Origin: Desulforamulus hydrothermalis Lam5 = DSM 18033
GTDB taxonomy: Bacteria > Bacillota > Desulfotomaculia > Desulfotomaculales > Desulfotomaculaceae
DNA length: 64,000 bases
Reading direction: 5' to 3'
Assembly (NCBI RefSeq): GCF_000315365.1
Contig: NZ_CAOS01000001.1
Location: 1,456 to 65,455, forward strand
Shown: positions 34,570 to 55,650 of the stretch, in pieces
Numbering within the stretch: the first letter of the stretch is position 1
Layout: each line of letters starts with the position of its first letter
The notes under the pieces: model-generated
Told to the model about the DNA's origin: nothing
Seen by the model: only the letters and a program-made list of their open reading frames with translations
Databases searched by the model: none
Translations under genes and position numbers: made by a program

Positions 34570-34690
34570 ATAGCTTCAGAAAGCAATGCTCCAATATCAA
34601 TGTTCAAGGAATAACTGTTCGAAGAACAATGCTTCAAAGAACAATGATATAGATTACATTCCAAATTCATATTTACGGAGGTATAAAAGC

Positions 34691-35443
34691 ATGAAAAACA
34701 ATGAACTCGTAACTATTAACGAAAATACAGGTTTTCTTCAGCTCGCTGATTTCAATCTTGACGAGGCAATGGCATCAGAACTTGACGGTCTTGACATGAC
34801 TTTTGAGCGCATAAAAATCCCGTCCGCAGGCAGCACAGTATTCGAAGTACCCGGGGAAAATCCCGGAGAACCTGATACTGTCAAGGAATTCTCAGCGGTA
34901 ATTCTTTATCATCATCCACTTTATGCATACTACAAGGACAAGTATACCGGAGGTAGTAACCCACCGGATTGCGGAAGCTTTGATGGTATAACCGGCGAAG
35001 GAGACCCCGGAGGAAGCTGTGCCAAATGCCCATATAATCAGTTCGGTTCTGGGGAAAACGGCAGCAAAGCTTGCAAGAACCGCCGCAGGATATATGTACT
35101 GCGTGAAGGGGAGATTTTCCCGTTGATACTCTCATTGCCAACAGGATCGTTGAAAGAGTTTTCCCGCTATATCAAAAGGCTGCTTTCTAAAGGCAGAAAA
35201 TCAAACAGCGTAGTTACCCGCTTTTCTTTGAAAAAGGCGACTAACTCAAGCGGTATCACCTATTCACAGGCTCAGTTTGCTGTAGATCGGGATCTGACCG
35301 CTGACGAATATGCGTTGATATCCAAGCTTTCCGAGCAGGTCAAAGCATTCAGTACCCGAGTCGGCCATGACACTGAACCTGCCGGTGAAGAGGTAATAAA
35401 TGTAGACCCTAAATCAGGTGAAATTACTGAGCCGCTTAAGTGA
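34691..35443 (+). CDS. Phage hypothetical protein with Cys cluster
   Basis: About 250 residues. A central Cys set (CGSF..., CAKCPYNQFGSGENGSKAC) could bind zinc; the rest is beta-rich. Found next to DNA polymerase in many Clostridia prophages, sometimes named ssDNA-binding or replication accessory. Ribosome site GGAGGT before ATG 34691. Function not proven. Confidence 0.7.
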   Translation: MKNNELVTINENTGFLQLADFNLDEAMASELDGLDMTFERIKIPSAGSTVFEVPGENPGEPDTVKEFSAVILYHHPLYAYYKDKYTGGSNPPDCGSFDGITGEGDPGGSCAKCPYNQFGSGENGSKACKNRRRIYVLREGEIFPLILSLPTGSLKEFSRYIKRLLSKGRKSNSVVTRFSLKKATNSSGITYSQAQFAVDRDLTADEYALISKLSEQVKAFSTRVGHDTEPAGEEVINVDPKSGEITEPLK

Positions 35444-35500
35444 TCAAAGGCCCTATCGGAGAGTAACTTCCATCTCCGATAGGGCGGAAAGGAGAACCGC

Positions 35501-37423
35501 ATGGGATACAAATGTGTTTATATGCTGTCTGAAATAAAAGAGTATCTGAAAAACACTGTCCTATTTGCTTTCGACTTTGAAACGTCACCCCGCGATAAAT
35601 GGAGGAACGATAAAAGTGCAGCTCTGGATGCTCATAAAGCAGATATTACAGGGATCAGTTTTTCAGTATCAGAAGGGACTGCTATATATGTTCCACTTAA
35701 ACATCGTAGCGGGCGAAATGCAGAGAACCAGGCGGCAATATGGGATTATCTGAAATTACTATTCGAATCAAAAGATGTAATAAAAGTTGCTCATAATCTG
35801 GCTTTTGAGTCTATGTTCCTTTACGCAAGAGGCATTGTCCTTCAAAAGCCTTGCTATGACACGATTGCAGCATCACAACTTACATTAAAAAGCAAGTGGG
35901 AGTTCAGAAGTCTTGCTGACAGCGGACTTAAAACGCTTGCGCCTGCACTCTGCAAAGCAGAAATGACAGAATTCTCAACGGTTACTGACGGCCGCTTTTT
36001 CGATGAATTGAACCCTCAGGATGAGAAGACTGTCCGCTACGCTTGTGCTGACAGCGACTACACTCTTCGCTTGTATCATGTTTTCAATCAGTGGTTTGAT
36101 AGATTTTTACCCAAACACAGAACCATTGTGGAAGAGGTAGAATCGCCTACATCAGTGTATGTCGGGATAATGAAGTATAACGGCATATTGGTGGATAAGT
36201 CAGCCATGCTGAAGAAACAAGCGGAAGCCGCAGAAAAGATTGTCAGTATCAGAAAAGAGATTGCCGGAATTATCGGCAATGTAGAGATTGGGGCAAATGC
36301 TTCAACTTCAGCATTTAAAAAATATCTTTTTGTGGATCTCGGTCTTCCGGTAATGAAAACGACCGCAAAACATCAGGAAGCTGCCGATGATGAAACCATG
36401 ATCCTGTTAAAAGAATGGTGTGAATCCAACAGGCCTGAACTTGCTCGCTTATTTGAACTGGTGCAGGAATACCGCAAGTGGGGAAAACTCAAATCCACCT
36501 ATATAGACGGGTATCTTCGATTTATTGATGAGGATACCGGCAGGATTCATCCGGACCTTATGCCATTGGGGACAGAGACAGGCAGATTTGCGTCAAGAAA
36601 CCCGAATATGCAGAATTGCCCGCAGAAAGATAATGACCCAATAGGCATACGGAAATTTATCATTTCGCCAGCCGGAAAGGTTCTTTTATCCCTTGACTTT
36701 TCACAGATAGAACTGCGCGTCGGAGCGTTTTATTGCAGGGACAAACGTATGCTGGAAACCTATCGTACTGGCGGTGATATCCACGCTCAGACCACTTCTG
36801 TTATTTACCGCATTCCTTTTGAAGAGGCAGCAGACAAAAATGCTCCGCATTATAAAGAGCGCAGGACCATTGCAAAGAACTGTAATTTTGGTGTGTTCTA
36901 TGGCCTGTTTCCTACTGGCTTACAGAGGACACTTAAATTTAAAGCAGGCCTGAACCCGACTTTGTCCGAATGTGAGACCATCATTCAAAACTTGAAAGCC
37001 GGATACCCTGGTCTTGCCAAATGGCAGGATGAGGTTAAAAAGCGGGCTGCTGTAAGCTGCTATACAGAAACATGGCTGGGCAGGCGAAGATACCTGCTGG
37101 GAATTCGGTCATCAGATTGGGGCAAGAAGTCGTTTGCCGAGCGGTGCGCATTAAATACACCTATTCAAGGTACAGCGGCAGATATTCTAAAGCTTGCCTG
37201 TGGGCGCATCATCAGTGGACTTCCCGAAAGGCTTTGGCTGAAACCTATACTGCAGATACATGACGAGCTGGTTTTTGAATTACCGGAAGACAAGGTGGAC
37301 GAAGCAGTTGCTTTAATAAAAGAGTGTATGGAAACACAACCCTTCCCTGAATTTGATGTACCTATTGTGGCAGAGGCTTCGGTAGGGAGAAATTTTGGAG
37401 AAATGAAAGAAATGGAGGATTGA
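35501..37423 (+). CDS. Phage family A DNA polymerase
   Basis: 640 residues. N-terminal 3'-5' exonuclease-like domain (FAFDFETSPRDKW, ACADSDYTLRLYH). Polymerase motif A LSLDFSQIELRVGAFY, motif B RRTIAKNCNFGVFYG, motif C ILQIHDELVFELP. Replicates the phage genome. AAAGGAG before the ATG. Confidence 0.95.
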   Translation: MGYKCVYMLSEIKEYLKNTVLFAFDFETSPRDKWRNDKSAALDAHKADITGISFSVSEGTAIYVPLKHRSGRNAENQAAIWDYLKLLFESKDVIKVAHNLAFESMFLYARGIVLQKPCYDTIAASQLTLKSKWEFRSLADSGLKTLAPALCKAEMTEFSTVTDGRFFDELNPQDEKTVRYACADSDYTLRLYHVFNQWFDRFLPKHRTIVEEVESPTSVYVGIMKYNGILVDKSAMLKKQAEAAEKIVSIRKEIAGIIGNVEIGANASTSAFKKYLFVDLGLPVMKTTAKHQEAADDETMILLKEWCESNRPELARLFELVQEYRKWGKLKSTYIDGYLRFIDEDTGRIHPDLMPLGTETGRFASRNPNMQNCPQKDNDPIGIRKFIISPAGKVLLSLDFSQIELRVGAFYCRDKRMLETYRTGGDIHAQTTSVIYRIPFEEAADKNAPHYKERRTIAKNCNFGVFYGLFPTGLQRTLKFKAGLNPTLSECETIIQNLKAGYPGLAKWQDEVKKRAAVSCYTETWLGRRRYLLGIRSSDWGKKSFAERCALNTPIQGTAADILKLACGRIISGLPERLWLKPILQIHDELVFELPEDKVDEAVALIKECMETQPFPEFDVPIVAEASVGRNFGEMKEMED

Positions 37424-37427
37424 TGTT

Positions 37428-38216
37428 ATGAATAACTTACAGGTTTTTAAGAATACAGAATTTGGAGAACTTAAAGTACTCGTTATTGATGGAAAGGAAT
37501 ACTTCCCTGCGGCAGATTGCGCGAGGATGCTTGGATACTTAGATCCCTACGATGCAATTAAGAGACATACAAAGGGGTCGGTGAAACACCGAGTCCTTAC
37601 AAGTGGCGGTGAGCAGGATATAAAATTTATTCCGGAAGGAGATCTTTTCCGATTAATTGTTAAATCAAAGCTTCCTGCTGCTGAACGCTTTGAAAGATGG
37701 GTCTTTGATGAAGTCTTGCCTACGATAAGAAAACATGGAGTTTATGCTACAGATAAAGTTATCGAAGAGATGATTTCTAATCCGGAGTATGGTATCAGGA
37801 TTTTCTCTGAACTAAAGGCAGAACGCGACAGACGGAAAGCTTTAGAAATAGAGAATGCAAAGAATAAACAGATTATCAGCGAGCTAAAGCCCAAGGCGAG
37901 CTATTATGATCTCATATTGCAAAATAAAAGCCTTGTTCCGATCAGCAAGATTGCCAAGGATTACGGAATGTCTGGCCGCGCTTTCAATAAGCTGCTTCAT
38001 GAACTTGGGGTACAGTACAAAATGGGAAACTGCTGGCTTTTATATCAGGAGTACGCCGATCAAGGATACACGCAGTCCAAGACCCATGCTATTGATGCAG
38101 AAAGAAGCGTAATGCACACATATTGGACACAAAAAGGAAGGCTATTTATCTATGACCTTCTTAAAAACAAGAAAGGTATATTGCCTGTAATCGAACGTGA
38201 ACAAAAAAGCGCATAG
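37428..38216 (+). CDS. Phage antirepressor (BRO-N + KilA-C)
   Basis: 262 residues. N-terminal BRO domain (KVLVIDGKEYFPAADCARML, HRVLTSGGEQDIKFIPEGDL) and C-terminal ANT/KilAC HTH (ISKIAKDYGMSGRAFNKLL). Typical lytic-switch antirepressor, but placed inside the replication module, so its target may be local. Confidence 0.9.
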   Translation: MNNLQVFKNTEFGELKVLVIDGKEYFPAADCARMLGYLDPYDAIKRHTKGSVKHRVLTSGGEQDIKFIPEGDLFRLIVKSKLPAAERFERWVFDEVLPTIRKHGVYATDKVIEEMISNPEYGIRIFSELKAERDRRKALEIENAKNKQIISELKPKASYYDLILQNKSLVPISKIAKDYGMSGRAFNKLLHELGVQYKMGNCWLLYQEYADQGYTQSKTHAIDAERSVMHTYWTQKGRLFIYDLLKNKKGILPVIEREQKSA

Positions 38217-38231
38217 GCAGGGGGTAATACC

Positions 38232-38657
38232 ATGAGTATCAGCAAGTTTAACGCGGAAGGATATTACGACCCCACACCTTATGAAGCACTGCTTAGGATT
38301 GAGCGAGAGGCCAGGAAAGCGCCTTACAGACCGATGGTATTTATCTGCAGCCCATATGCTGGTGATATAGAACGTAATATCCGTAAGGCTCAGGGGTACT
38401 GCCGCTTTGCAGTGAGCAGGAATTGCATACCTATTGCTCCGCACCTCTTGTTTCCGCAGTTTATGGACGACGATGATGAACAAATGCGGGATCTGGGCTT
38501 GTTCTTTGGCATGGTGCTGATGTCAAAGTGTTCAGAAGTGTGGGTATTTGGCAGAAAAATTACTAAAGGGATGTCCATTGAGATTGAAAAGGCAAAGCAG
38601 CGCAGCATTCCGATCCGGTATTTTAATGAACAATGCGAGGAGGTACGATGTAAGTGA
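38232..38657 (+). CDS. DUF4406-like (DUF7768) nucleotide-related protein
   Basis: 141 residues. MVFICSPYAGDIERNIRKAQ and EVWVFGRKITKGMSIEIEKA show the nucleoside deoxyribosyltransferase/SLOG-like Rossmann fold common in prophages. Likely binds nucleotides; no activity shown. Overlaps the next gene by four bases. Confidence 0.8.
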   Translation: MSISKFNAEGYYDPTPYEALLRIEREARKAPYRPMVFICSPYAGDIERNIRKAQGYCRFAVSRNCIPIAPHLLFPQFMDDDDEQMRDLGLFFGMVLMSKCSEVWVFGRKITKGMSIEIEKAKQRSIPIRYFNEQCEEVRCK

Positions 38658-40378
38658 GCATCTCATTCCCTAAAGAACTGGCTAACCGGAAGCAATGGAT
38701 ATGCTGGCGTCTGGAACCAAACACAAAGGACGGAAAAGACAGTAAAATCCCTTACAATCCCTTAACCGGCAGAAAAGCCTCAAGCACTAACCCAAACGAC
38801 TGGTCGACCCTTGACAATGCGGTTGCGGCAAAAGAACAATACCTCTATACCGGATTGGGTTTTGTATTCGCAAAAAGCGGAGGCTTAGTAGGGATAGACA
38901 TAGATCACTGCCGCGACAAAAACACTGGGGAATTAAACGATACCGCCAAGGCTATCCTTGAGCGGTTTCCGTCCTATACGGAAATCAGCCCTTCAGGAAC
39001 TGGGCTTCATATTTTCTATAAAGGGGAGATGCCTGCCAAGGGCAATAAAAACACAAAAACCGGCGTTGAAATGTATGCCCACAGCAGATATTTCACAATG
39101 ACTGGCGAACGACTGCCAGGGACTCCTGATTACATTGCTGAAGATAACGGGGCACTGGCCTGGATACATGAGAATTATATCAAAAGTAAAAAGCGGAGAG
39201 GAAAAAGCAAGAAAGACAGTAAGGTGGTTAAGCTAGAGCCGCTTACAGACGAAGAAATTCTGGAGAAAGCCCGGACAGCCGAAAACCATAAGGAATTTAA
39301 CCTGCTATGGGAAGGAAAATGGCAGGAAGCAGGGTATCCCAGCCAGTCCGAAGCCGACCTTGCCCTTTGCTGTATGCTGGCTTTCTGGTCAGGCAAAAAC
39401 AAAGAGCAGATGGACAGGCTGTTTAGAAATTCCGGGTTATTCCGGGAAAAGTGGGATACGGTACATCATGCAAGTGGAGCAACATATGGGCAGGAGACAC
39501 TGGATAAGGCCATTGAAGTCACAGAGAACGTATACAGCCGCGAGAGCGAGTCGGTTATCTTTGAACATGAGGGCAGGTATTACCGCACCAGAGGCGAAAG
39601 CGTGTATCCTATAACAAACTTTATCATCCAGCCGGTGGAGATGATTGTATCAGAAGATGAAACGCAAATGACCGCCGATCTTATTACAATCCGCGATGAA
39701 GTATACCGCCAGACCTTTATGACTACCGACTTCAATAACATCCAAAAGTTTAAAAATATCTTGAACCGCCGGACAATATCCTTAGGCTATTTTGGCTCAG
39801 AAGGAGATTTGGAACTGCTGAAAGGTTATATATCCGAAATGGAGTGGGTACAAAAAACAGGGGTCAAGGCTCTTGGAATTTATGAGCATGGCGAGCGGAT
39901 GGTATATGTTTCAACGGATGGTGCCATTGAAGCCGGAGGCAACATTGTTGAAGATATCGTGCAGCTTGATAAGTATAAAAGCATAACAACCGATATTCTA
40001 ATCTTTGAGCCATTGACAAAGGAACAGCTTGTTATGCTTGGAGAATGGATCCTCAGCTATAACGAACCTATAAAAACGGTGTCAGTGATGGCATGGGTAG
40101 CAGGATGCTTTATTAAACCGCATCTTAAAAAATCGGGCATTAAATTTCCGCATTTATTGCTTGTCGGAGAACAGGGCAGCGGAAAAAGTAATACATTGGA
40201 GCGGGTTATTCTGCCGGTATTTTCATGCAGTAAAATCCGCGCGGCTACACAGGTTACTGCATTTACACTGATGAAGGAATCTGCATCATCGAATCTGATA
40301 CCGCAGCTGATGGATGAATTCAAACCTTCAAAGATAGACAAGTGTGACCGTCAAGTACTTTTGAACAAATTTCGCTAA
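38654..40378 (+). pseudogene. Phage primase-helicase, 5' part (split by IS21)
   Basis: Prim-pol-type N-terminus (ELANRKQWICWRLEPN, LVGIDIDHCRD with catalytic Asp) and helicase Walker A LVGEQGSGKSNTLERV. The true coding sequence ends at 40342, where IS21 copy 2 enters at FKPSKIDK. Removing the IS and one ACAAG rejoins the gene as SKIDK-LRLNALYNHLRDAY. Phage replication by this protein is therefore interrupted. Confidence 0.9.
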
Positions 40379-40392
40379 ATAATTTTTAGCAT

Positions 40393-41148
40393 CTAATTAT
40401 TTCCAAAAATGGTTTTGCGATGTTTGATTCGGTAGCTGTCACCACTTAAATGAACCACCTCACTTTTATGGATTATGCGATCCAAAATTGCGGTTGTAAT
40501 TGCCGGATCACCGAGCAACTCTCCCCAGTCTTCAGGACCTTTGTTAGAGGTAATTATCAGAGAGGTTTGGCCATAGAGCCGGTTGACCAGTTGGAAGAAC
40601 ATATTGGCTTCATTGCGATCCATGGCCATAAACATCAGGTCATCAATTATGACCAAGTCTGAGGAAATTATCCGTTTGATCCTAACCCGGCCGCTGCGGG
40701 TGATTTCCTGAGTCTTAAACAGGTGAATCAGGGCATCCATCTGAATAAAGCTGACTTTATACCCCCGGCGAATAGCCTCAATACCCAAGCCAATAGCCAA
40801 ATGGGTTTTTCCGACTCCAGGAGGCCCAAGCAATATGAGATTGTATGCCTGCTCAACCCATAGTAATTCCTTCAGTTGTTGTAACTGCTTTTTACTTAAG
40901 GATTGTTGTTCAGCCGGATTGAAGGATTCGAGAGATTTATATTCCGGGAATGCCGCCCATTTCAACCGCTTTTCCTGGTGTTTTTCTTCCCGTTTATGCA
41001 GCTCATACTGGATGAGTTGATGTAGAAACTCCCGGCAGGTAAGTTGTTTGGCCTCTGCGTCTATTAAAAAATCATCAAGAATCTTTGCTGTTTCAGAAAA
41101 ATTCAACAACTTCATTTGCTGTTTTAATTCAGCGGTTACTCCTGGCAT
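40393..41148 (-). CDS. istB: IS21 helper IstB, copy 2
   Basis: 251 residues with Walker A GPPGVGKTHLA and Walker B LVIIDDLMF. Overlaps the istA end. Complete. Confidence 0.93.
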   Translation of the reverse strand: MPGVTAELKQQMKLLNFSETAKILDDFLIDAEAKQLTCREFLHQLIQYELHKREEKHQEKRLKWAAFPEYKSLESFNPAEQQSLSKKQLQQLKELLWVEQAYNLILLGPPGVGKTHLAIGLGIEAIRRGYKVSFIQMDALIHLFKTQEITRSGRVRIKRIISSDLVIIDDLMFMAMDRNEANMFFQLVNRLYGQTSLIITSNKGPEDWGELLGDPAITTAILDRIIHKSEVVHLSGDSYRIKHRKTIFGNN

Positions 41149-42763
41149 ATCAGGCCTCCATTCATAATTTGTTGATAAATTTTAATATCTCGCACCTGAG
41201 GTTTGGTTTTCAGTTTGCTTCGGTCTGTTTCGTCTAAAGGCTTAATTTCTGGTGAAACATCTTTATATACGGGTTTTCCCAAAGTATCCTGTTCTTTAAA
41301 ATGCTTTACAGCGTCAACAAAATCTGTTGCACTAAATAACTTGTGTTTCAAACAATATCCCAGCGCCTTTGCAATTACCTGCGTGCTTAAATCCGTGATA
41401 TTTTGCTGGATTAATTGCAACTGATCCCGGATATATCGTGGTTTTTGTTCCCGGATTTTTTCGAGAAATGCTCTGGCCTGTGAAGGGTCGTTAAAAAGGT
41501 TAGCTACACTGTCAATATACTTGTCAATTCCCTTGGAACGGTCCCGGCTGTGATTATTATTTTTAATCAGCTTGCCTTTTTCATGACATATATTGTGCCT
41601 GGCCAGTTCCTGGCGGTAGCTTGGTCATAAATTACCAGGACATTATCATCAACTACTTCGACCAAGACTTCTTTATCCATGCCGTCGTATGTTCCCAACG
41701 GAACCGAGTAGCGATTGCCGTTGTACCAAACAGTATTGTCTTTTCGAACTCGTCTTGTTATACTATTGGTACAACTTATTTCCATTTTTTCAAGAACCGG
41801 TCGAAGGTGTTGTTTTTCGAGTACGAACACTTCCGCCGGTATTTTCTTTGTCGTGTTATGCTTCTTTCCGTTACCTGTCCGTTCTAGCCAGGCCAAGCAA
41901 TCTTCGTTTAGCTTGTCCAGGTTAAAAAACATCCGATGTTTAGCAAAGTTCTTTTTTACGTATCCCACTACGTTTTCTATCCGTCCTTTGCTCTCTGGGT
42001 CCTGTTTACGGCACATGTAGATTTGAAAACCCCGTTTTTTCGCATAAGCGGCAAATTCATGCGTCATAATCAGGTCTCCGTAGTTTTCGCTGACCAGGAT
42101 AAGATGATCTTGGTCGTAGACAATCTCTTTTGTCATACCACCAAAGTATGCAAAAGCATTTTCATGAATCTGGATAACATCTGCCGTTGTAAAGGGCCGG
42201 TCAAGCCACGCCACGTATTTATACCGGGAATGGGACAGCACAAAGGTAATGAACCAAAGTTTGATTAGATTCCCTTTGATATTTTTAAGTTTGGTCTCAC
42301 CAAAATCAACCTGCATCTGATAACCCATGGGCGGGTCTTCGACGGCTTCGTACTGCCTTTTATGTATGGTTTTCGGGATATCATGCTCCTTTCTTAATCT
42401 AGATACATAATTTCTTACGGTACTCTCACAGACATCTACCTCCGGGTGCCTTTCTAATAACCAGTCCAGTACCTGAGCTGCTGAAAAATCCGGATATTCC
42501 TTAAGCCACGATAAAATTTCTCCACCAACACAGTCCAGCTTTTTCTGCCGGGTCTTCAATTCTTTAATGGCCTTCTCTAATTCATCTGGCTCAAGCCTTT
42601 CGTACTTGTACACGGTATTTCTGGAAATGCCTAAATGTCTGGCTATCTGTGATACATTTAATCCTAACTCCTTAAGCCGGTGTATTTCTAAATACATGCT
42701 CCACCTTTCCGCAATTTTCATTATACCCTCTCCCAATGATGATTGAATTGCCAGTTCAATCAT
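41136..42763 (-). pseudogene. istA: IS21 transposase IstA, copy 2, frameshifted
   Basis: N-terminal HTH (VSQIARHLGISRNTVYKYE), DDE core with QVDFGETKLK, VYDQDHL and Glu in SKGRIENVVGYVKK. The main frame stops at 41567, but another frame carries on as ELARHNICHEKGKLIKNN, then to the 41136 stop with IAKALGYCLKHKLFSATDF, normal for an IstA C-terminus. One C missing near 41623 explains it. A few residues of the N-terminus may be extra (start near 42700 also possible). Confidence 0.85.
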
Positions 42764-42839
42764 ACAGGAAAGGTATATTGTGGTAAATACTGTTCATTTT
42801 TATTTAGCGGAATCTGTTAATTATATTTTAGCGGTTACA

Positions 42840-43711
42840 ACAAGTTAAGGCTAAATGCCTTATACAACCATCTTCGTGATGCATATGACGGGCATGAAGG
42901 TGTCCGTGGCCGGGCGGATCAAAGTGCTGTTACTTATGAACTGTTGGCGCCTATTATTGTAGCTGGTGAGGAATCGCCGGATGAAGCGGCTATTAGGGAA
43001 CGAAGTATAGAATTGCTTTTCAGTAAGAAGGACTTAAAACCGGCCAGCCATAGGCAAGCATTTTATAAGTTGTGTGCAAAAGCGGATCTGCTTGGCAGCT
43101 TCGGCCGGAGCCTGCTGGATATAGCACTCAGGGTATCGCCCGATGAGGCGGAGAAATGGTATGAGGAAGCAAAGTCAGAGATATCTGATGAGTTTCCATC
43201 CCGTATCGTCAATAACCTTGCATGCTGCTATGCCGGATTGAGCCTAGTAAACAAACTGTGTGAATTCCTTAATGTAACGTGGTCTGAAGTGTTTCCCATT
43301 AACAAAGGTGCATGTATTCGATATCTTCAGAACGGTGTGCAGGAGTACTTACTGGATGGCGGCAGTAATAATAAGACCATTGTAGAACAGACGCTGGAAA
43401 TCATGGCCCGGATGAAACTGGCTCCGAATCAAGACTACACTTTTGATAAAGATGGCAAGGTTATCGGGATTCGTTTCTGTGATGTATATGACCGCTATAC
43501 CAAGTACAGACGCGATTATGCAATCACAGGTGAATGTCTTCCATATAACCAGTTTTTGAAGCAATTGAGGCAAAGTGACTTTTTTATAGAGAGCAATAAA
43601 ACGATGCGTTTCGGAAATGAAACAAAAAAAGCGTGGGCTCTTGATTTCTCGATACTGAAAGAGCGATGCGATGTGAGCGGCTTTGAGATCACAGATATTG
43701 AGCCTCTTTAG
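42840..43711 (+). pseudogene. Phage primase-helicase, 3' part
   Basis: Continues the gene interrupted at 40342: LRLNALYNHLRDAYDGHEG, then helical C-terminal regions with a winged-helix-like tail (DYTFDKDGKVIGIRF). The first ATG in frame is 42944, but the coding sequence really begins at the duplication. Confidence 0.88.
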
Positions 43712-43717
43712 TATCGA

Positions 43718-43995
43718 AAAAGGTAACAAGGTAACAAAAAGGTAACGCCCGAAACGCTGATGAATAGCCACTTGTTACCGATGTTACCTTTGTTACCTCA
43801 ACTTTATATATACGCGCGAGAGATGAAATTATTTTTTGAAAAAATAAAAAATAAAAAAAATATAAATATTTGTGTCTATACCTTCCCCCAAAAAGAGGTA
43901 ACAAGGTAACAAAATCCGCAAATGCGCTTGTAAAGCGGGTTTGAGAAGTTACCTTTTTAGAAATACCGGGGTAACAAGAGGGGAAAAAGTAACAT
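43718..43995. promoter_or_regulatory. Candidate phage replication origin (GGTAAC iterons)
   Basis: Ten GGTAAC copies: plus strand at 43722, 43730, 43741, 43897, 43905, 43970; minus strand (GTTACC) at 43774, 43783, 43792, 43948; a variant AGTAACA near 43989. Neighbours are spaced 8-9 bases in pairs/triplets. Between the groups lies a very AT-rich tract (about 43825-43872). Iterons plus AT-rich DNA between helicase and nuclease genes is what a replication origin looks like. Confidence 0.65.
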
Positions 43996-44014
43996 TTTTG
44001 GAGGATGAGCGGTT

Positions 44015-44317
44015 ATGTCTGAAAAGAGTATTGTGACTAAAATCCTGCGGTACTTAAAGACAGTACCGGGGTGTTTCTGCTGGAAGGAACATGGCGGTAT
44101 GTACGGGACAGCGGGAATACCAGACATTATTGCCTGTGTAAATGGGCGGTTTATAGCTTTTGAAGTAAAAACCCCATCGGGAAAGACAACAAAACTGCAG
44201 GAAGCAACCATCAAAAAAATCCTCAATGCCGGAGGAGTGGCAGCGGTTGTCCATTCGGTAGATGAGGTGAAGGTTATTCTGGAAAAGCATGGCCTTCTGC
44301 AAAGAACGAAGACATAA
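44015..44317 (+). CDS. VRR-NUC domain nuclease
   Basis: 100 residues. PD-(D/E)XK nuclease fold: GIPDIIACVNGRFIAFEVKT, with Asp and the ExK pair. Single-domain phage VRR-NUC proteins process DNA junctions or replication intermediates. GGAGGATGAG upstream. Confidence 0.92.
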   Translation: MSEKSIVTKILRYLKTVPGCFCWKEHGGMYGTAGIPDIIACVNGRFIAFEVKTPSGKTTKLQEATIKKILNAGGVAAVVHSVDEVKVILEKHGLLQRTKT

Positions 44318-44408
44318 CGAACAAGGAAACAAGCACTGCAAAGCAATGCAAAAAAGCACACTGCTTCAAAGATCAAGGTTTTTTATCTTGATTTTTTGGA
44401 GGTGCGAT

Positions 44409-44864
44409 ATGCTGATTGCATGGCAGTATTTAGATAAAAAAGCGGCTGCTGTTGAAGCTTTGAAAGATTACAGCAGCATGCAGTACATTATCGAACACAG
44501 TGATGAGGATATATATGAAATTGAAACCCGTATGACAAGCCCTCATAGTGCAAAGATTACCGGAGTTCCGGGCAAACACAATCCCAAAAGCGGCGAAGAA
44601 CGCCTTGCTGCTTGCCTTGACGAGATTGATGTGTTGAAAGAACGTTACAGGCGGGCATTGGAATATATGGAGTGGTTCAAGCCTGCTTGGGAAGCTCTGT
44701 CGGAGGAAGAACAGTTTATACTGACAGAATTTTTTGTTAATGATGTGAGTAAGACAGAAGCTGTAGCAAACATCGGAGAGAAGCTGTTTCTTGAAAGAGC
44801 ACAGGTATACCGCAGGAAAGACAAGGCGCTTAATCATCTTGCACTGCTTTTATATGGGAAGTAG
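44409..44864 (+). CDS. ArpU/DUF1492-like phage transcriptional regulator
   Basis: About 151 residues. C-terminal sigma-4-like HTH (LSEEEQFILTEFFVNDVSKT, ERAQVYRRKDKALNHL). Such regulators control late genes in Firmicute phages. TTGGAGGTG upstream of ATG 44409. Confidence 0.8.
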   Translation: MLIAWQYLDKKAAAVEALKDYSSMQYIIEHSDEDIYEIETRMTSPHSAKITGVPGKHNPKSGEERLAACLDEIDVLKERYRRALEYMEWFKPAWEALSEEEQFILTEFFVNDVSKTEAVANIGEKLFLERAQVYRRKDKALNHLALLLYGK

Positions 44865-44898
44865 TTTAAGATAACATTAGCTGCATGTTAAATAGGAA

Positions 44899-44940
44899 AC
44901 CCACTTAGATAGAGCGATCTACCTAAGTGGGTATTTTTTA
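44899..44940 (+). terminator. Terminator after the late regulator
   Basis: ACCCACTTAG/CTAAGTGGGT stem with an inner TAGA/TCTA and T-rich tail. Confidence 0.9.
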
Positions 44941-45012
44941 TGGCCTACTGTATTGCGCTTAAAGTAAGCTCGTAGGATCTGTTATTTATAGTATACGCTC
45001 TTTAATAAGAAA

Positions 45013-45083
45013 ATCAATTAGATTTGAAAAAATGAACTAATTGATGCATAAATCTTGACAATAGGCATATAATATAGTATCAT
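45013..45083 (+). promoter_or_regulatory. Promoter and operator of the toxin-antitoxin pair
   Basis: TTGACA (45055-45060), 17-base spacer, TATCAT (45078-45083). Just upstream a 9-bp inverted repeat ATCAATTAG/CTAATTGAT (45013-45021/45037-45045), a good site for autoregulation by the antitoxin. Confidence 0.7.
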
Positions 45084-45106
45084 TGTATCACAAAAGAGGT
45101 GATGCA

Positions 45107-45517
45107 ATGAATCAGCACTATAATCAGAACTATACCCGGGATCAGATTGATGAGATTTTGGCAATGATACAAGACTGTATAAGAGAGGGCAGATTTATTA
45201 TATCAAAAAATGAGAATAGACAAGAAAACATAGATTTTATAAATGAATATAACTTAAATAGTAGAAGGCAAAAAGAGATTTTACTAAAAATAAAAACAGA
45301 AGATTTCTGCCATTCATTGCAAAATACAAAAATAGGATTTGAACATGAGGTTTTATATGTATTTTGTCCCCAGGTTACGTTATTTAACTTTGATGGTATC
45401 GAGGAGCTAGTTGATATATATACGAAATTTAATCTAATTGATAGTGAGAGTGGAAAACGAGTGGTTGTCATATCGTTTCATAAGCGAAACAAGCCGATTG
45501 ATTATCTTTTCCGATGA
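45107..45517 (+). CDS. MqsR-like toxin of a Panacea toxin-antitoxin pair
   Basis: About 136 residues. IDEILAMIQDCIREGRFIIS at the start and KRVVVISFHKRNKPIDYLF at the end resemble MqsR/RelE-type mRNA interferases. GAGGTGATGC before ATG 45107. The next gene is a zinc-finger/Panacea antitoxin. It would arrest translation when freed. Family assignment comes mostly from the pairing and the C-terminal pattern, so moderate certainty. Confidence 0.65.
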   Translation: MNQHYNQNYTRDQIDEILAMIQDCIREGRFIISKNENRQENIDFINEYNLNSRRQKEILLKIKTEDFCHSLQNTKIGFEHEVLYVFCPQVTLFNFDGIEELVDIYTKFNLIDSESGKRVVVISFHKRNKPIDYLFR

Positions 45518-45556
45518 TCAATCAGAAAGTTTGAGAGTTTGAAAGGAGGTCGCCTT

Positions 45557-46555
45557 ATGAATAGGAATAAGACATTTTGCGAGGAATGCAGAAGAGATGT
45601 CGAATACATGGTAGAAACAGCAACAATTAAGGGTAAACTTAAAGGCGAAGAATATGAGTATACTGGAAAGAAGGCTGTTTGTACGGAATGTGGGAGCGAA
45701 GTCTATGTAGCGGATATAGAGGACGAAAATCTAAAGGCTTTGTATGACACGTACCGTCAAAAAAACGGCATTATTTCGCTGGAGAAGATATTAGAAATAC
45801 CTCAGAAATACAATATTGGCAAACGTCCGCTGTCATTGCTTTTAGGCTGGGGAGAAATGACTTTTTCGAGATATTGTGAGGGTGATATGCCTACAAAACA
45901 GTATTCGGATATTCTTCAAAAGATTTATGATGATCCAGCGTATTATAAAGAATTGCTGGAGAAAAATAAGGATAATTTAAAATCTCCGCAGGCATATGAA
46001 AAAAGTAAGCGGAAGGTACAGGAACTGCTTGGAGAGGGAAAAAATGCAGGTTCAAAGCTGGACTCGATTATACAATATCTGCTTTATAAGTGCGAGGACA
46101 TAACTCCTTTAGCTTTACAAAAGGCACTATATTATGTCCAGGGTTTTTATTATGCTTTTGAAGGACGGTTTCTTTTTGAAGAAGACTGTGAGGCATGGGT
46201 TCATGGACCGGTTTACAGAGATGTATATAACAGGTATTCATCTTATCGGTTTGACCCAATTGAGAGTGTTGAAGTTTTCGATGAATCAGTTTTTACAACT
46301 TCTGAAAAAGCAATACTGGATAGTGTTATTAAAAACTTTTGCTGTTATAGCGGAAAAATATTAGAAGAATTTACGCATCTGGAGAAGCCATGGCGGCGTA
46401 CCAGGGACGGTTTGCCGGTGGATGCGCATTCTAATCGTGTAATACCCAAAGAATTGATCGGGGAATATTTTGTTGCTGTGAAAGAAAAATTTAACATGCT
46501 TACTCCTGGAGATATAGAAGTATACTCGAAAGCTATCTTTGAACAAATAAACTGA
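45557..46555 (+). CDS. Panacea-domain antitoxin with zinc finger (SocA/MqsA-like)
   Basis: 332 residues. N-terminal zinc ribbon (CEECRRDVEYM..., VCTECGSEVYV), middle HTH (IGKRPLSLLLGWGEMTFSRY), C-terminal Panacea/DUF4065 domain (LALQKALYYVQGFYYAF, CEAWVHGPVY). Binds and blocks the toxin before it and likely represses their promoter. GAAAGGAGG before ATG 45557. Confidence 0.88.
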   Translation: MNRNKTFCEECRRDVEYMVETATIKGKLKGEEYEYTGKKAVCTECGSEVYVADIEDENLKALYDTYRQKNGIISLEKILEIPQKYNIGKRPLSLLLGWGEMTFSRYCEGDMPTKQYSDILQKIYDDPAYYKELLEKNKDNLKSPQAYEKSKRKVQELLGEGKNAGSKLDSIIQYLLYKCEDITPLALQKALYYVQGFYYAFEGRFLFEEDCEAWVHGPVYRDVYNRYSSYRFDPIESVEVFDESVFTTSEKAILDSVIKNFCCYSGKILEEFTHLEKPWRRTRDGLPVDAHSNRVIPKELIGEYFVAVKEKFNMLTPGDIEVYSKAIFEQIN

Positions 46556-46577
46556 TATTTTTAGCTTCCTTTTAGGT

Positions 46578-46670
46578 GAGATATTTATGAGATGCAAAAC
46601 ATAGAAATCCAATATATAATGATATCATGAAAAAATGCCATTAAAACGCATAAGCCCTTCGGGGCTTTTT
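46578..46670 (+). promoter_or_regulatory. Repeated late-promoter-like element 1 with terminator
   Basis: GAGATATTTATGAGATG, ten bases, AAATCCAATATATAATGATA, then a short leader and the terminator AAGCCCttcgGGGCTT (46652-46667). The same element recurs at 46941. The TATAAT-like core would be a -10. Placed where ArpU-type regulators act. Confidence 0.6.
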
Positions 46671-46699
46671 CTTATGACATAAAACGGGAGTGAAGAAAG

Positions 46700-46942
46700 A
46701 TGTACGATAATTGTTTTGGCAGTAACGGAAAGAATGGCTGCAATATCCTGACTGTACGCAAGTGTCAGCAAGATAAATGTTCCTTCTATAAAAGCACCCA
46801 GGAGTTAGAGGAAGATAGAAAAAAGGCTTATCTTTTGCTTGCAGCTTTATCACCCGATATGCAGCGGTATATTTCGGATAAATATTATAATGGCAGGATG
46901 CCATGGGCAAATAGCAAATATGCTTTTCAGTATTCAAGATGA
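46700..46942 (+). CDS. Small Cys-rich phage protein
   Basis: 80 residues; N-terminal Cys set (CFGSNGKNGC, CQQDKCSFYK) then a helix (ELEEDRKKAYLLLAALSPDM). Possibly zinc-binding. Ribosome site GGGAGTG. Function unknown; lies between two copies of the promoter-like element. Confidence 0.65.
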   Translation: MYDNCFGSNGKNGCNILTVRKCQQDKCSFYKSTQELEEDRKKAYLLLAALSPDMQRYISDKYYNGRMPWANSKYAFQYSR

Positions 46943-47042
46943 GATTTTTATGAGATGAAATTCATTATAAATCCAAATATAATGGTATTGTGAAAAATTA
47001 TGGATAAGCCTTCATGGGATGAACCTGTGAGGGCTTTTTTTA
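46941..47042 (+). promoter_or_regulatory. Repeated late-promoter-like element 2 with hairpin
   Basis: GAGATTTTTATGAGATG, ten bases, AAATCCAAATATAATGGTA, then AAGCC ... GGGCTT hairpin with T tract (47006-47041). Directly before the HNH and terminase genes. Confidence 0.6.
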
Positions 47043-47064
47043 TACCCGTAAAGGAGGTGGCCAG

Positions 47065-47424
47065 ATGCCAAGAAAGCCAAAAAGGCCTTGCTCCTTTCCA
47101 GGCTGTCCTGAACTGACGGACGGAAGGTACTGTGACATGCATCAAAGGCAAGAGGATGCTTATTACAACAAATACGAACGAGATCCCCAAACAAGAAAAC
47201 GCTATGGTCGGAGATGGAAACGCATCAGGGACAGATATATCTCAGAGCATCCGCTTTGCGAGGAGTGCCAAAAGTACGGAAGGCTTACACCAGCCGAAGA
47301 GGTACATCATATTATCCCTTTATCCAAAGGCGGAACCAATGCAGACAGTAACCTTATGAGCCTGTGCAAACAATGTCACTCATCGATTACTGCTCGCGAA
47401 GGAGAACGATGGGCAAGACGGTAG
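47065..47424 (+). CDS. Phage HNH endonuclease
   Basis: 119 residues. Zinc Cys pairs (CSFPGC, CEEC, CKQC) and HNH box EVHHIIPLSKGGTNADSNL. Works with terminase in DNA packaging of HK97-type phages. AAAGGAGGTGG before ATG. Confidence 0.95.
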   Translation: MPRKPKRPCSFPGCPELTDGRYCDMHQRQEDAYYNKYERDPQTRKRYGRRWKRIRDRYISEHPLCEECQKYGRLTPAEEVHHIIPLSKGGTNADSNLMSLCKQCHSSITAREGERWARR

Positions 47425-47544
47425 GGGGGTCAAAATCTCTGGTGAAGTAGTTTTGTGCAACGGGCGGGGGGTCACGCGCGAAAAATCGCAGTTTCAAACG
47501 GGGTATATCCCCTGTTTATTTTTACATGAATCGAGGTGATGTGT

Positions 47545-48096
47545 ATGGCAAAGGACGGTACCAACCGCGGCGGGGCACGTATCGGTGCAGGACAGAAGAA
47601 AAAGCCTCTGGCGGATAAGATTTTGGAAGGAAATCCCGGCAGACGAAAGCTCATGGTAATGGAGTTTACGGATGCTGCGGAACTGGAAGGAGGGAGCATG
47701 CCGCCACCAAGGGATTATCTTGCCGCAAAGCAGAAGAACGGAAAAACAACACTGGCGGTGGAAATATACGAAAAAACATGGCAGTGGCTTAAGGAACGCA
47801 GGTGTGTTCACCTTATCCCTGCGCAGCTTATAGAGCAATATGCCCAGAGTGTGGCGCGGTGGATCCAGTGCGAGGAATGTATCACCGAATTTGGCTTTCT
47901 TGCCAAGCATCCGACGACTGGCAATGCCATCCCGTCACCTTATGTGGCGATGAGCCAAAGCTTCATGAAACAGGCAAATAACCTGTGGTATCAGATTTAC
48001 CAAGTTGTGCGGGAAAACTGTGCTACCGAATACAAAGGGGCCACTCCCCACGACGACGTGATGGAAAAACTCCTGACAGCCAGGAGGGGTGGCTGA
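47545..48096 (+). CDS. Terminase small subunit (P27 family)
   Basis: About 183 residues; MAKDGTNRGGARIGAGQKKK and KILEGNPGRRKL at the start, HTH-like part later. Recognises the packaging site. GAGGTG before ATG 47545. The large subunit is about 6 kb downstream, separated by methyltransferases and accessory genes. Confidence 0.88.
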   Translation: MAKDGTNRGGARIGAGQKKKPLADKILEGNPGRRKLMVMEFTDAAELEGGSMPPPRDYLAAKQKNGKTTLAVEIYEKTWQWLKERRCVHLIPAQLIEQYAQSVARWIQCEECITEFGFLAKHPTTGNAIPSPYVAMSQSFMKQANNLWYQIYQVVRENCATEYKGATPHDDVMEKLLTARRGG

Positions 48097-48278
48097 TGAG
48101 TAATATAAAGTTAATCTTCCTTAGAGAACTTAGAAAATATAAAGACCATTTAACGAAGCAGCAGTTTAAGACTCTGCGGGGACAAGTATTAAACGGAGAT
48201 TGTGAGGGCGCAAAAAAGGGTCTTAAGAAAATATTGAACAGGAGAATGCAACATGAACATACAAAAAATATCTGTTGA
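48096..48278 (+). CDS. Small basic phage protein
   Basis: 60 residues, MSNIKLIFLRELRKYKDHLT, basic and helical. Start overlaps the terminase stop (TGATG). In this place related prophages often have a short protein of this kind; function unknown. Confidence 0.65.
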   Translation: MSNIKLIFLRELRKYKDHLTKQQFKTLRGQVLNGDCEGAKKGLKKILNRRMQHEHTKNIC

Positions 48279-49551
48279 CAAACTTAATCCTGCAGAATAC
48301 AACCCGCGCAAGGATTTAAAACCTGGCGATAAGGAATATGAAAAGCTAAAACGGTCAATAGAGGAATTTGGCTATGTGGAGCCTGTTATCTGGAACCAAA
48401 AAACAGGTAATGTGGTAGGCGGGCATCAACGCTTAAAGGTTTTGCTGGACTTGGGACAGACTGAGATAGATTGCGTCGTTGTAGATCTTGACCTGCAGAG
48501 AGAAAAAGCGCTCAATCTTGCTCTTAATAAGATTCAGGGAGAGTGGGATGAGAATAAACTGGCTGAACTGATGGCTGAGTTGGACGCAGGTGCATTTGAT
48601 GTTTCGCTTACAGGGTTTGACGCTTCTGAAATAGACGAACTGCTTAACCGATGGTACTCCAAAGAGGCGATACAAGACAGCTTTGACATAGATAAAGCGC
48701 ATGAGGAAATTGTGCAGCGCGAACCTGTAACGAAGCGGGGCGATATCTGGCTTCTCGGGAATCATCGCTTGATGTGCGGCGACTCTACTAAGGATGAGGA
48801 TTTTGAGAAGTTGATGGAAGGGTGTCACGCACAGATGGCAGTGACTTCCCCTCCATATGGGGTAGGCAAAGAATATGAAAAGGCCGGGATTGAACCATGG
48901 TTCGAGACAGTACGCCCAGTGATTAGAAACCTGTGCAGGTATGCAGATATTGTCTGCTGGAACCTGGGCGACCTTTACGCCACCGGCTCACAGTTCATTG
49001 AGCCTACCAGCGTATACAGCGTGAATATGTTTTTAGACAACGGCTACCGCCCCATATGGATCCGCATCTGGAAGAAGCAGGGGCAGAATTTCGGCGTTGG
49101 ACCCTATCACCTTGTGTCCAATAAGCCGGTTCAGCAGTATGAATATATTTCAGCCTTCAGCAAAAACGGCGAGGCTGAGGAATACAACGATCAGGAGTAT
49201 GTGTGGCTTTCGGCGTTTGCCGGGCACAGTTATAAATTTGTGAAACGGCTTACAAAGGAAGAACGTAAGAAGTGGGGCTATGCGGGCATATGGGAGATGA
49301 CGACTGTACGGGCAAACAAGGAACATCCGGCAATGTTCCCTGTGGAGCTTCCATGGCGGTGCATCAAAATGCACAGCGACAAAGGCGGTATTGTGCTTGA
49401 ACCGTTTTCCGGCAGCGGCACCACTATAATTGCGGCTGAACAGACTGAGCGTAAATGCTATGCGATGGAGTTATCTCCTATTTACTGTGATTTAGCTGTT
49501 AAGCGCTGGGAGGACTTCACCGGTGAAAAAGCCGTCAAATTGGAGGGTTAA
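48253..49551 (+). CDS. ParB-N / DNA methyltransferase fusion, copy 1
   Basis: 432 residues. N-terminal ParB-like domain (NPRKDLKPGDKEYEKLKR, GHQRLKVLLDLG) and C-terminal adenine/cytosine-N4 methyltransferase with TSPPYG (motif IV) and LEPFSGSGTTIIAA (motif I), so class beta. Methylates phage DNA, perhaps against host restriction. No restriction enzyme nearby. Confidence 0.92.
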   Translation: MNIQKISVDKLNPAEYNPRKDLKPGDKEYEKLKRSIEEFGYVEPVIWNQKTGNVVGGHQRLKVLLDLGQTEIDCVVVDLDLQREKALNLALNKIQGEWDENKLAELMAELDAGAFDVSLTGFDASEIDELLNRWYSKEAIQDSFDIDKAHEEIVQREPVTKRGDIWLLGNHRLMCGDSTKDEDFEKLMEGCHAQMAVTSPPYGVGKEYEKAGIEPWFETVRPVIRNLCRYADIVCWNLGDLYATGSQFIEPTSVYSVNMFLDNGYRPIWIRIWKKQGQNFGVGPYHLVSNKPVQQYEYISAFSKNGEAEEYNDQEYVWLSAFAGHSYKFVKRLTKEERKKWGYAGIWEMTTVRANKEHPAMFPVELPWRCIKMHSDKGGIVLEPFSGSGTTIIAAEQTERKCYAMELSPIYCDLAVKRWEDFTGEKAVKLEG

Positions 49552-49556
49552 GATTT

Positions 49557-50812
49557 ATGGATATACTGAAAATACCAGCAAGAAAAAATTAAAACCTTCG
49601 AGATATAACCCGCGGAAGGACTTAAAGCCGGGCGACCCTGAATATGAAAAACTACGCCGGTCTATTGAAGAGTTTGGATATGTAGAGCCGGTCATATGGA
49701 ACAAACGAACCGGGAACATCGTCGGCGGGCATCAGCGGTATAAGGTACTGACAGCTTTGGGGTATAAAGAGATCGACTGTGTTGTAGTTGATTTGGATGA
49801 ACAGCGGGAAAAGGCGCTCAATGTCGCTCTGAATAAAATCAGCGGCGAGTTTGATATTCCGCTTTTGACCGACCTGCTTATGGACTTAAATGAAGATGGC
49901 TTTGACGTTTCTCTTACAGGATTTGACGCTGCAGAAATCGACGAGTTGTTCCGTGATAAAACAGCCGCCAATGTCAAAGAAGATAATTTCGATGCGGAAA
50001 AGGCAGCAGCAGAGATTAAAACTCCGGTTACCAAAAGGGGTGATATATGGATGCTTGGCAGCCACCGTCTGATGTGTGGTGACAGCACCTTGCTTTCAGA
50101 TGTGCAGAAGCTGATGGCTGGCCAAAAGGCGAGGTTTGTTTTCACCGACCCGCCCTGGAACGTGGATTACGGTTCGGATACCAGGCATCCGAGCTGGAAG
50201 CCAAGGCAAATTTTAAATGACAAGATGAGCACCGAAGAATTCGGCGCTTTTTTATTGCGCGCTTTTAATTGTATGAGGAAGGTTTCTGAAGCCGGATGCA
50301 TGACATATGTGGTAATGAGTGCCCAGGAATGGGGCAGTTTGATGAACGTCATGCGGGAGGCAGGGTATCACTGGTCAAGCACAATCATATGGAAAAAGGA
50401 CAGCCTTGTACTATCCAGAAAGGACTATCATACCCAGTACGAGCCGATCTGGTACGGCTGGCTTGAAGGGACGCGCCTTTGCCCGCTTAAAGACCGCAAA
50501 CAGTCGGATGTTTGGGAGATACCTCGCCCCAAAGTGTCGGAAGAGCACCCGACCATGAAACCGGTTTCACTTGTGGCAAAGGCCATGCTCAACAGTTCCC
50601 ATACTGGAGATTTAGCCCTTGACCTGTTCGGCGGATCCGGTACGACAATGATTGCAGCGCAGCAGACCGGGCGGGTTTGTTTTATGATGGAGCTTGACCC
50701 GAAATACTGCGATGTGATTGTAAAGCGCTATGTTTCACAATTTGGAGCAGATTTAGTATTTCTGCTGTCAGGTGGCAAAAAAATTCCTTACGCTGAAACA
50801 CAGATTGCTTAA
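49557..50812 (+). CDS. ParB-N / DNA methyltransferase fusion, copy 2, frameshift near start
   Basis: About 420 residues, paralogue of the preceding gene; TDPPWNVDYG (motif IV) and LDLFGGSGTTMIAA (motif I). ATG 49557 reads MDILKIPARKN and stops at TAA right after an A6 run (49583-49588); one more A, or a -1 slip on A-AAA-AAT, joins it to LKPSRYNPRKDLKPG. The continuous frame also opens at GTG 49523, but its first residues do not look like the family. Confidence 0.85.
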
Positions 50813-53987: not shown

Positions 53988-54017
53988 AGGAACTTCATCC
54001 ATGAGGTTCCTTTTTTC
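53988..54017 (+). terminator. Hairpin before the large terminase
   Basis: GGAACTTCAT/ATGAGGTTCC stem followed by six T. It overlaps the first codons of the frame that opens at 54001, which argues that terminase starts later. Confidence 0.7.
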
Positions 54018-55650
54018 TTGCTCAATTTTAGGAAAGGAGGCGGCAAAGCTGCGGAAGTTAAAACGATATAAATCAACCAAGTTTATGGCGGAAGGTTCTC
54101 GATATGACAAGGAAGCGGCGGATGCCGCTGTTACTTTTATAAACTGCCTGAAGCATACCAAGGGTGAATGGTATGGAATGCCTTTTGAATTAATTGACTG
54201 GCAGGAACAGATTGTCCGGGATATATTCGGAATCTTGAAACCTAACGGATACAGGCAGTTTAACACTGCCTATATAGAAATTCCAAAAAAGCAGGGTAAG
54301 AGCGAACTTGCAGCGGCAATTGCTTTATATCTTACCTGTGGTGATTTCGAGCATGGTGGCGAGGTTTATGGATGTGCGTCTGATCGTCAGCAGGCATCCA
54401 TTGTTTTCGATGTTGCAGTAGATATGGTGGAACAGTGTCCGGCATTAAAGTCTCGAATTAAACCAATGCTGTCGCAGAAGCGGCTGGTATATAAACCGTT
54501 AGGCAGTTTTTATCAGGTGCTTTCAGCGGAGGCATATACGAAACATGGGCTAAACGTCCATGGTGTGGTATTTGACGAACTTCATGCCCAGCCAAACAGG
54601 GATCTTTATGATGTAATGCTTCACGGATCTGGCGATGCAAGAAAACAGCCGCTGTTTTTCCTGATTACAACTGCTGGCACAGACCGCAATTCCATCTGCT
54701 GGGAAGTGCATCAAAAGGCTGAGGATATTCTTCAAGGACGTAAGATAGATCCGACTTTCTACCCGGTTATCTACAGCGCAGCCGATACCGATGACTGGAC
54801 AAGTGAAAAGGTATGGAGAAAGGTTAACCCGTCACTGGGCATTACAGTCGACATCGAAAAATTGAGGGTGGCTTGTGAAAATGCCAAGCAAAATCCTGCA
54901 GAGGAAAATTTATTCCGTCAGCTCCGCTTAAATCAGTGGGTGAAACAATCGGTGCGCTGGATGCCAATGGATAAATGGGATAAGTGTGCGTTTCCTGTTG
55001 ATGCAGAAAAATTGCGCGGCAGAACCTGTTACGGAGGACTTGACCTGTCATCTACTACCGATATTACCGCCTTTGTGCTGGTGTTTCCACCGCTTGATGA
55101 ATCTGACAAATATCAGATTCTACCTTTTTTCTGGATACCGGAGGAAAATATTGCCCAGCGTGTGCGGAGAGATCATGTGCCTTATGATGTCTGGGAGAGG
55201 CAGGGCTTTTTATATACCACTGAGGGTAACGTTGTGCATTATGGCTTTATCGAAACCTTTATTGAGGAACTCGGAATGAAATATAACATTAAGGAAATAG
55301 CCTTTGACCGCTGGGGCGCAATTCAGATGACGCAAAACCTTGAGGCTTTGGGGTTTACGGTTGTTCCATTCGGTCAGGGTTTCAAGGATATGTCGTCGCC
55401 TACAAAAGAGTTGATGAAGCTGACATTGGAAGAACGCATCGCCCATGGCGGTAATCCAGTACTGCGGTGGATGATGGACAATATCTATGTCAAAACTGAT
55501 CCCGCCGGAAACATTAAGCCGGATAAAGAAAAATCCACCGAGAGAATAGATGGCGCGGTTGCGCTCATTATGGCGCTTGACCGCGCGTTAAGGCATGGAG
55601 GAGAAAATATCGGTTCAGTCTATGATGAGCGTGGGCTTTTAATACTCTAA
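54001..55650 (+). CDS. Terminase large subunit
   Basis: About 530-549 residues. Walker A-like EIPKKQGKSELAAAIAL, Walker B GVVFDELHAQP, nuclease domain with GGLDLSSTTDITAFVLVF, EIAFDRWGAIQM and ERIDGAVALIMALD. Cuts and packages DNA with the small subunit. The frame begins at ATG 54001 within a terminator; a start at CTG 54049 (AAAGGAGG eight bases ahead, then RKLKRYKSTKFMAEG) fits better. Confidence 0.93.
   Translation: MRFLFSCSILGKEAAKLRKLKRYKSTKFMAEGSRYDKEAADAAVTFINCLKHTKGEWYGMPFELIDWQEQIVRDIFGILKPNGYRQFNTAYIEIPKKQGKSELAAAIALYLTCGDFEHGGEVYGCASDRQQASIVFDVAVDMVEQCPALKSRIKPMLSQKRLVYKPLGSFYQVLSAEAYTKHGLNVHGVVFDELHAQPNRDLYDVMLHGSGDARKQPLFFLITTAGTDRNSICWEVHQKAEDILQGRKIDPTFYPVIYSAADTDDWTSEKVWRKVNPSLGITVDIEKLRVACENAKQNPAEENLFRQLRLNQWVKQSVRWMPMDKWDKCAFPVDAEKLRGRTCYGGLDLSSTTDITAFVLVFPPLDESDKYQILPFFWIPEENIAQRVRRDHVPYDVWERQGFLYTTEGNVVHYGFIETFIEELGMKYNIKEIAFDRWGAIQMTQNLEALGFTVVPFGQGFKDMSSPTKELMKLTLEERIAHGGNPVLRWMMDNIYVKTDPAGNIKPDKEKSTERIDGAVALIMALDRALRHGGENIGSVYDERGLLIL

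Follow-up and report, generated by a model that had tools for sequence, protein, structure and literature searches.

Between a primase-helicase gene (stop at 43711) and a VRR_NUC nuclease gene (start at 44015) lies a gap of 303 bases that probably serves a tailed prophage as its replication origin. The initiator protein encoded by the phage itself would open it through a new family of iterons; we give this reading a probability of roughly 0.86. The gap lies in a stretch of 64,000 nucleotides from Desulforamulus hydrothermalis Lam5 = DSM 18033 (contig NZ_CAOS01000001.1, positions 1,456 to 65,455 of the forward strand), hereafter the window, whose own numbering is used throughout. It is read as an origin because it holds an iteron array and an A/T tract and adjoins the initiator gene, because relatives share this arrangement, and because of the fold predicted for the initiator, with whose winged helix the iterons covary. 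An earlier note, made from the letters of the sequence, had already proposed a prophage origin here; the sequence comparisons and structural models described below support that proposal, as does an origin annotated in Lactobacillus phage A2. The features of the gap are the following.

43722..43746, + strand: iterons 1 to 3, GGTAAC at 43722, 43730 and 43741 (exact word match)
43774..43797, - strand: iterons 4 to 6, GGTAAC at 43774, 43783 and 43792 (exact word match)
43805..43818, no strand: alternating purine-pyrimidine run of 14 bases, TATATATACGCGCG, counterpart of longer runs in relatives
43821..43880, no strand: A/T tract, candidate unwinding element, the most A/T-rich 60-mer of the window (54/60)
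43897..43910, + strand: iterons 7 and 8, GGTAAC at 43897 and 43905 (exact word match)
43948..43953, - strand: iteron 9, GGTAAC (exact word match)
43970..43975, + strand: iteron 10, GGTAAC (exact word match)
43988..43993, + strand: eleventh, degenerate site AGTAAC (GTAAC core at 43989), just 5' of the VRR_NUC gene
44015..44317, + strand: VRR_NUC nuclease gene, adjoining the putative origin (PF08774, phrog_93)

The exact word GGTAAC (or GTTACC) is thus present ten times in 43722-43975, on both strands and within 260 bases, with the A/T tract amid the copies, as the earlier note had described. The start-to-start spacings within groups are 8 and 11, then 9 and 9, then 8 bases; the claimed arrangement in pairs and triplets 8 to 9 bases apart holds for four of these spacings and fails for the spacing of 11 and for two solitary sites. 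The first iteron begins about 10 bases past the initiator stop codon, and relatives have it at the same place. Within the 300 bases 3' of the primase stop, the most frequent 6-mer occurs 10 times. None of 200 dinucleotide shuffles (mean 2.98) reaches this value, nor does any of the 632 other windows compared across the 64 kb, and the pattern is indeed far above chance. Over the whole window GGTAAC occurs 36 times (20.9 +/- 4.2 expected), and no stretch of 255 bases outside the 43722-43975 cluster holds two copies. Rfam gave no match within 43500-44300, up to E 0.1, and a single terminator-like site was detected at 44048, within the VRR_NUC gene. Comparison of the gap DNA with phage records yielded short matches only, covering at most 15% of the query.

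The gene located 5' of the gap encodes the putative initiator. This primase gene and the nuclease gene flank the array, in agreement with the earlier note; the primase gene, however, is split by an insertion sequence (40344-42841).

38654..40343, + strand: 5' part of the initiator gene, with an NrS-1-type primase-polymerase (AEP), a helix-bundle domain and the start of an AAA+ helicase (Walker A and B) (PF22763, phrog_1829)
40344..42841, - strand: IS21-family insertion, between Walker B and sensor 1 of the helicase
40393-41148, within the insertion: istB (IstB_IS21, E 3.5e-67)
41567-42763, within the insertion: istA (rve match)
42842..43711, + strand: 3' part of the initiator gene, with the remainder of the AAA+ helicase and the C-terminal winged helix (about 43367-43672; fold matches)
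43607..43609, + strand: codon of Arg222 (numbering from 42944), in the first wing strand (alignment column and modelled strand 214-223)

A single gene accounts for both open frames, 38654-40378 and 42944-43711, which istA and istB now separate. Homology to intact genes is interrupted at 40343/42842, with a 4-base overlap in the comparison with the relative L083; the break falls at the identical two bases against nine of 10 close relatives, the exception being L079 (off by two bases). Because IS21 splits the initiator gene, the origin is probably unusable unaided in the window's prophage, and it probably stays inactive where no related phage provides the initiator protein. A failed amplification after induction is therefore no argument against the origin, and the missing copy-number peak that the earlier note regarded as a refutation is not valid as such in this strain.

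The fold of the initiator was predicted from L083, a locus of a Thermoanaerobacterium strain in which the frame is intact (851 residues). The model of the full-length protein was built from 25 relatives and has a mean predicted local distance difference test score (pLDDT) of 87. Its residues 1-298 match the NrS-1 primase-polymerase 6a9w (Z 24.2, 40% identity). At the sequence level, the 5' part in the window matches PF22763 (NrS-1 HBD, E 9.7e-30) and phrog_1829 (DNA primase), and PF22763 is found in 25/25 full-length relatives. Residues 300-851 match SaPIbov1 Rep 8tch (Z 23.5, 453 aligned) and residues 300-847 match SCCmec Cch 5dgk (Z 22.5); the next-best matches are MCM helicases (Z 16), and a Foldseek E of 7e-12 supports grouping the helicase with Rep and Cch by its fold. 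Modelled on their own, the last 255 residues match Cch (5dgk), SaPIbov1 Rep (8tch) and TcpK (5vfx/5vfy) with middling Z values of 8.1-8.3, the TcpK match (Z 8.1, 91 aligned) being confined to residues 142-243. These matches, with the modelled secondary structure, indicate at fold level a C-terminal winged helix. The initiator is thus predicted to be an NrS-1-type primase-polymerase fused to a helicase of the SaPIbov1 Rep/SCCmec Cch type that ends in a winged helix. Despite the Cch-like fold, none of the 25 full-length relatives has a Pfam match (E 0.1) to DUF927, a domain named for Cch in an extract of PMC7581432. A primase-helicase of the P4 alpha or D5 type was rejected, D5_N and Pox_D5 being unmatched in all 25 (E 0.1). 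The helicase end retrieved nothing convincing in a sequence search of the PDB (best E 0.11) and no phage protein among 50,697 records (E 1e-5); the helicase end of a relative had no match among phage proteins at E 0.01. The N-terminal primase half matches 432 phage records.

Loci of relatives were collected from IMG/VR (15, then 54 loci, in overlapping sets) and from GTDB genomes (36 loci). L045, L084 and L108 (frameshifted or short) and L060 (devoid of a gap) were excluded, and merging of near-identical gaps left 73 distinct regions including the window. New relatives were scarce in whole-genome searches (5/150, 5/113, 9/398 and 3/97 genomes, the own or centre genome being counted in each), and a scan with L106 found none. 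The best 6-mer after the stop codon is matched by at most 2/200 shuffles in 41/73 regions and by at most 10/200 in 47/73; it is unequalled by any other window of the locus in 34/73. The iteron word differs among lineages (GGTAAC, AGTTAC, AGTTAG, AGATAG, GGAAAC, ACCAC, GCTAC, ATTAC, GTAAT, GTTGC, AGGCAC, and TAAACCG in a relative at 26% identity), and the pattern is not tied to GGTAAC as the earlier note implied. The automated iteron caller failed or shifted register at several loci (including L062, L097, L099, L101 and L027), and cores were read by eye where needed. In 49/54 loci the assigned core is present both left and right of the longest alternating run. In 52/54 loci no other locus window of equal size has as many copies of the core 5-mer as the gap, a count biased upward since the core was picked from the gap. 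The right-hand copies in the 54 loci are nearly all forward (125 versus 6 reverse). GTAAC-type repeats were also observed 3' of the gene in L220 and L222-L225 (31-36% helicase identity); the base core of such repeats seems to be very old or to have re-evolved.

The second element shared by the gaps is a tract of alternating purines and pyrimidines. Across the 64 kb, 1263 other windows were compared, and all have shorter runs than that at 43805-43818. Among the 73 regions, 62 have a run of at least 14 bases (maximum 47), and in 64 the longest run of the gap exceeds that of every other locus window of the same size. Inside the runs, 84 substitutions are transitions and 9 are transversions, against 278 and 256 outside (Fisher p 2.3e-13). 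These counts come from 15 disjoint pairs of gaps, hand-copied from a larger pair comparison, and deamination of CpG cytosines and the alignment of low-complexity sequence may contribute to the transition excess. The window lineage has only a short run, beside the A/T tract; the strong form of the tract is a feature of the relatives.

Iteron words and the winged helix of the initiator vary together. L104 and L105, which belong to one genome, are 94% identical in the helicase part (residues 1-140) and 56% in the winged helix (160-250); L104 has GGTAAC iterons and L105 has AGGCAC iterons. Likewise, L094 is 86% identical to L061 in the helicase part, but no row of the alignment exceeds 53% identity to its winged helix, and its iterons are GAAAC, not GTAAT. 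Covariation was computed on 54 of 60 rows; the six rows left out, among them L068, L069, L071 and L074, have 23-30% identity and no in-register core. The column of Arg222 contains R or K in 45/45 rows with C at core position 6, W, M or V in 5/5 rows with G, and N in 4/4 rows with T. It is the sole column of 318 with disjoint residue sets for C and non-C iterons, and under clade-matched random labels (placed on equally large groups of near relatives) any separating column appeared in 1/400 draws. In a tree built from only the helicase part, each of the two traits requires six changes, and in the four independent pairs on well-supported branches residue and base change together (4/4). L096 (R, GGTAAC) is nested within the N/GTAAT group. 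No alignment column separates motif positions 3, 4 or 5 as position 6 is separated (the best of them, position 4, reaches 0.40 versus 0.87), and position 5 varies in a single row. Eleven hold-out loci outside the alignment (L121, L122, L123, L124, L126, L145, L195, L201, L209, L213 and L214) all have R or K; C was read by eye in 11/11, and by automated count it is the most frequent base in ten, with a tie in L195. From these alignments we propose that Arg222 of the wing reads the C:G pair at iteron position 6. An equivalence with R75 of TcpK is only suggested by its position.

This covariation indicates a binding partnership, not the site where replication starts. It is therefore also consistent with iterons that the initiator binds for copy control or autoregulation only, replication starting elsewhere; iteron plasmids use such sites for control. 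We regard this explanation as unlikely, because an A/T or alternating tract lies between the iteron groups at most loci, because the counterparts in SaPI, SCCmec Cch2 and phage A2 are origins or putative origins, and because the window yielded no second array.

Even less probable is an operator, in which the repeats would bind the antirepressor, a repressor or the nuclease and control the transcription of VRR_NUC and the downstream genes. The right-hand iterons stand just 5' of the VRR_NUC start and an antirepressor gene is nearby, and the earlier note had named the antirepressor as a possible binder. However, an antirepressor homologue is present in only 6/34 relatives with at least 4.9 kb of upstream DNA, all of which have an assigned core. 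Eight relatives lack VRR_NUC, with at least 2.9 kb of downstream sequence, and all eight keep an assigned iteron core. Moreover, no sigma-70-like promoter was detected in 43600-44100, and the identity of the iterons follows the helicase winged helix. Since some loci lack VRR_NUC and most lack an antirepressor homologue while the helicase is common to them, the C-terminal winged helix of the primase-helicase is the expected partner of the iterons. A packaging or recombination site (pac/cos or a resolution site), which clustered repeats beside a nuclease gene could suggest, is very improbable, as the large terminase gene (54001-55650) is about 10 kb distant and the array stays 3' of the primase-helicase where VRR_NUC is absent.

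Several observations weigh against the gap being the origin of the phage. The GC skew does not turn at 43.8 kb and tracks gene direction. In 32/73 regions the best 6-mer fails the cut of 2/200 shuffles, and the case for the weaker arrays is made by eye and from homology. L068, L069, L071 and L074 (23-28% identity) have no clear array, and in some of them the next gene starts almost immediately. For the joint changes of residue and base the sign test gives p 0.125, and four pairs cannot reach 0.05. Finally, with R or K at every hold-out locus, only the common side of the wing-base rule is tested out of sample.

If the gap is the origin, the C-terminal winged helix of the primase-helicase would bind each GGTAAC(AA), with Arg222 recognising the C:G pair of position 6. 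Helicase rings would assemble from the molecules on either side of the tract and would melt the A/T tract or, in most relatives, the alternating purine-pyrimidine tract. The fused primase-polymerase could then lay the first primer, to be extended by the family A DNA polymerase of the phage or by the host. The stretch 34586-37423 of the window has a family A DNA polymerase gene with a phrog_23155 gene (unknown function) 5' of it; an extract of PMC10061031 reports that mobile elements pair family A DNA polymerases with single-stranded DNA-binding (SSB)-like proteins.

A broader proposal is more tentative, and we hold it somewhat more likely to fail than to stand. A family of Clostridia phages would possess a self-loading primase-helicase with an exchangeable code between its wing and iteron position 6 (Arg/Lys for C, Asn for T, Trp/Met/Val for G), in which a change of one residue with the matching iteron changes would switch specificity. 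In the majority of these phages the duplex would open at a long Z-DNA-prone tract, selected for alternation and not for its sequence, and replacing the A/T element. The initiator-iteron pairs of the loci form a natural series with joint changes of a single wing residue and a single base. They raise the questions of how the specificity of an initiator and of many iterons can change jointly, and of whether an origin can open at an alternating tract.

Other observations concern the window at large. The phage lineage of the window (35442-50423) and of L075-L084 shows 94-96% DNA identity over up to about 10 kb across differently named genomes (Thermotalea, Lacrimispora, Syntrophomonas, Clostridium, Thermoclostridium, Fonticella, Thermoanaerobacter, an Anaerovorax metagenome-assembled genome, Thermoanaerobacterium and Acetivibrio). 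This distribution reflects either an unusually wide host spread or contigs of which some are mis-binned or contaminating. Two neighbouring ParB-like/DNA methylase genes (48253-49551 and 49523-50812, named by eye) have similar start sequences and look like a duplicated pair. Outside the replication module, a unit of 259 bases is repeated four times at 99% identity (14932-15978).

Searches of the open-access literature listed no description of such phage origins, of alternating or Z-DNA tracts at phage origins, or of the initiator type of the window family. The putative origin would link initiators of the SaPI and SCCmec type to a phage group that has no helicase relative in the phage records searched. 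A phage counterpart is known from Lactobacillus phage A2, whose primase shares the NrS-1 HBD domain and 38.8% identity over the N-terminal 307 residues. Its GenBank record annotates a rep_origin (32208-32717) at the end of the primase gene, directly 3' of it as in the window, where ACGGGA(G) repeats flank an A/T tract on both sides. Phage A2 differs by a helicase half of the D5_N/Pox_D5 type, by another iteron word and by a next gene that is not VRR_NUC-like. In Bacillus phage A9Y, GGGTTAA repeats occupy the counterpart place and the primase has D5_N and Pox_D5 domains. The protein ORF904 of plasmid pRN1 unites a primase-polymerase, a helicase and a winged helix, and the origin is 3' of its gene, according to an extract of PMC4234260. 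The window family has the same set of domains in a single protein and a downstream putative origin, whereas pRN1 is described there with a stem-loop instead of iterons. TcpK of plasmid pCW3, as described in part of PMC6137059, reads tandem 9-nt boxes with a beta-wing in the major groove; it has the winged-helix fold in common with the window family but is a separate conjugation protein, not a helicase.

The closest likeness is with the staphylococcal initiators. In the extract of PMC7581432, SaPI Rep binds iterons immediately 3' of its own gene, and the C-terminal domain of Cch2 binds short direct repeats 3' of its gene. The window family resembles SCCmec Cch in the fold predicted over residues 300-847 and Cch2 in the repeats 3' of the gene; it differs from both by the primase-polymerase fused to the helicase. 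With SaPIbov1 Rep it shares a helicase with a C-terminal winged-helix fold and an iteron array directly 3' of the initiator gene. It differs from it by the N-terminal fusion to an NrS-1-type primase-polymerase, by a host element that is a whole tailed phage, by iteron words of its own and by the alternating tract of most relatives. From these sequences and models, the origin most likely works like that of the SaPIbov1 type; what sets it apart as new is the fusion to a primase, its own family of iterons, the proposed code between wing and base, and the alternating tract.
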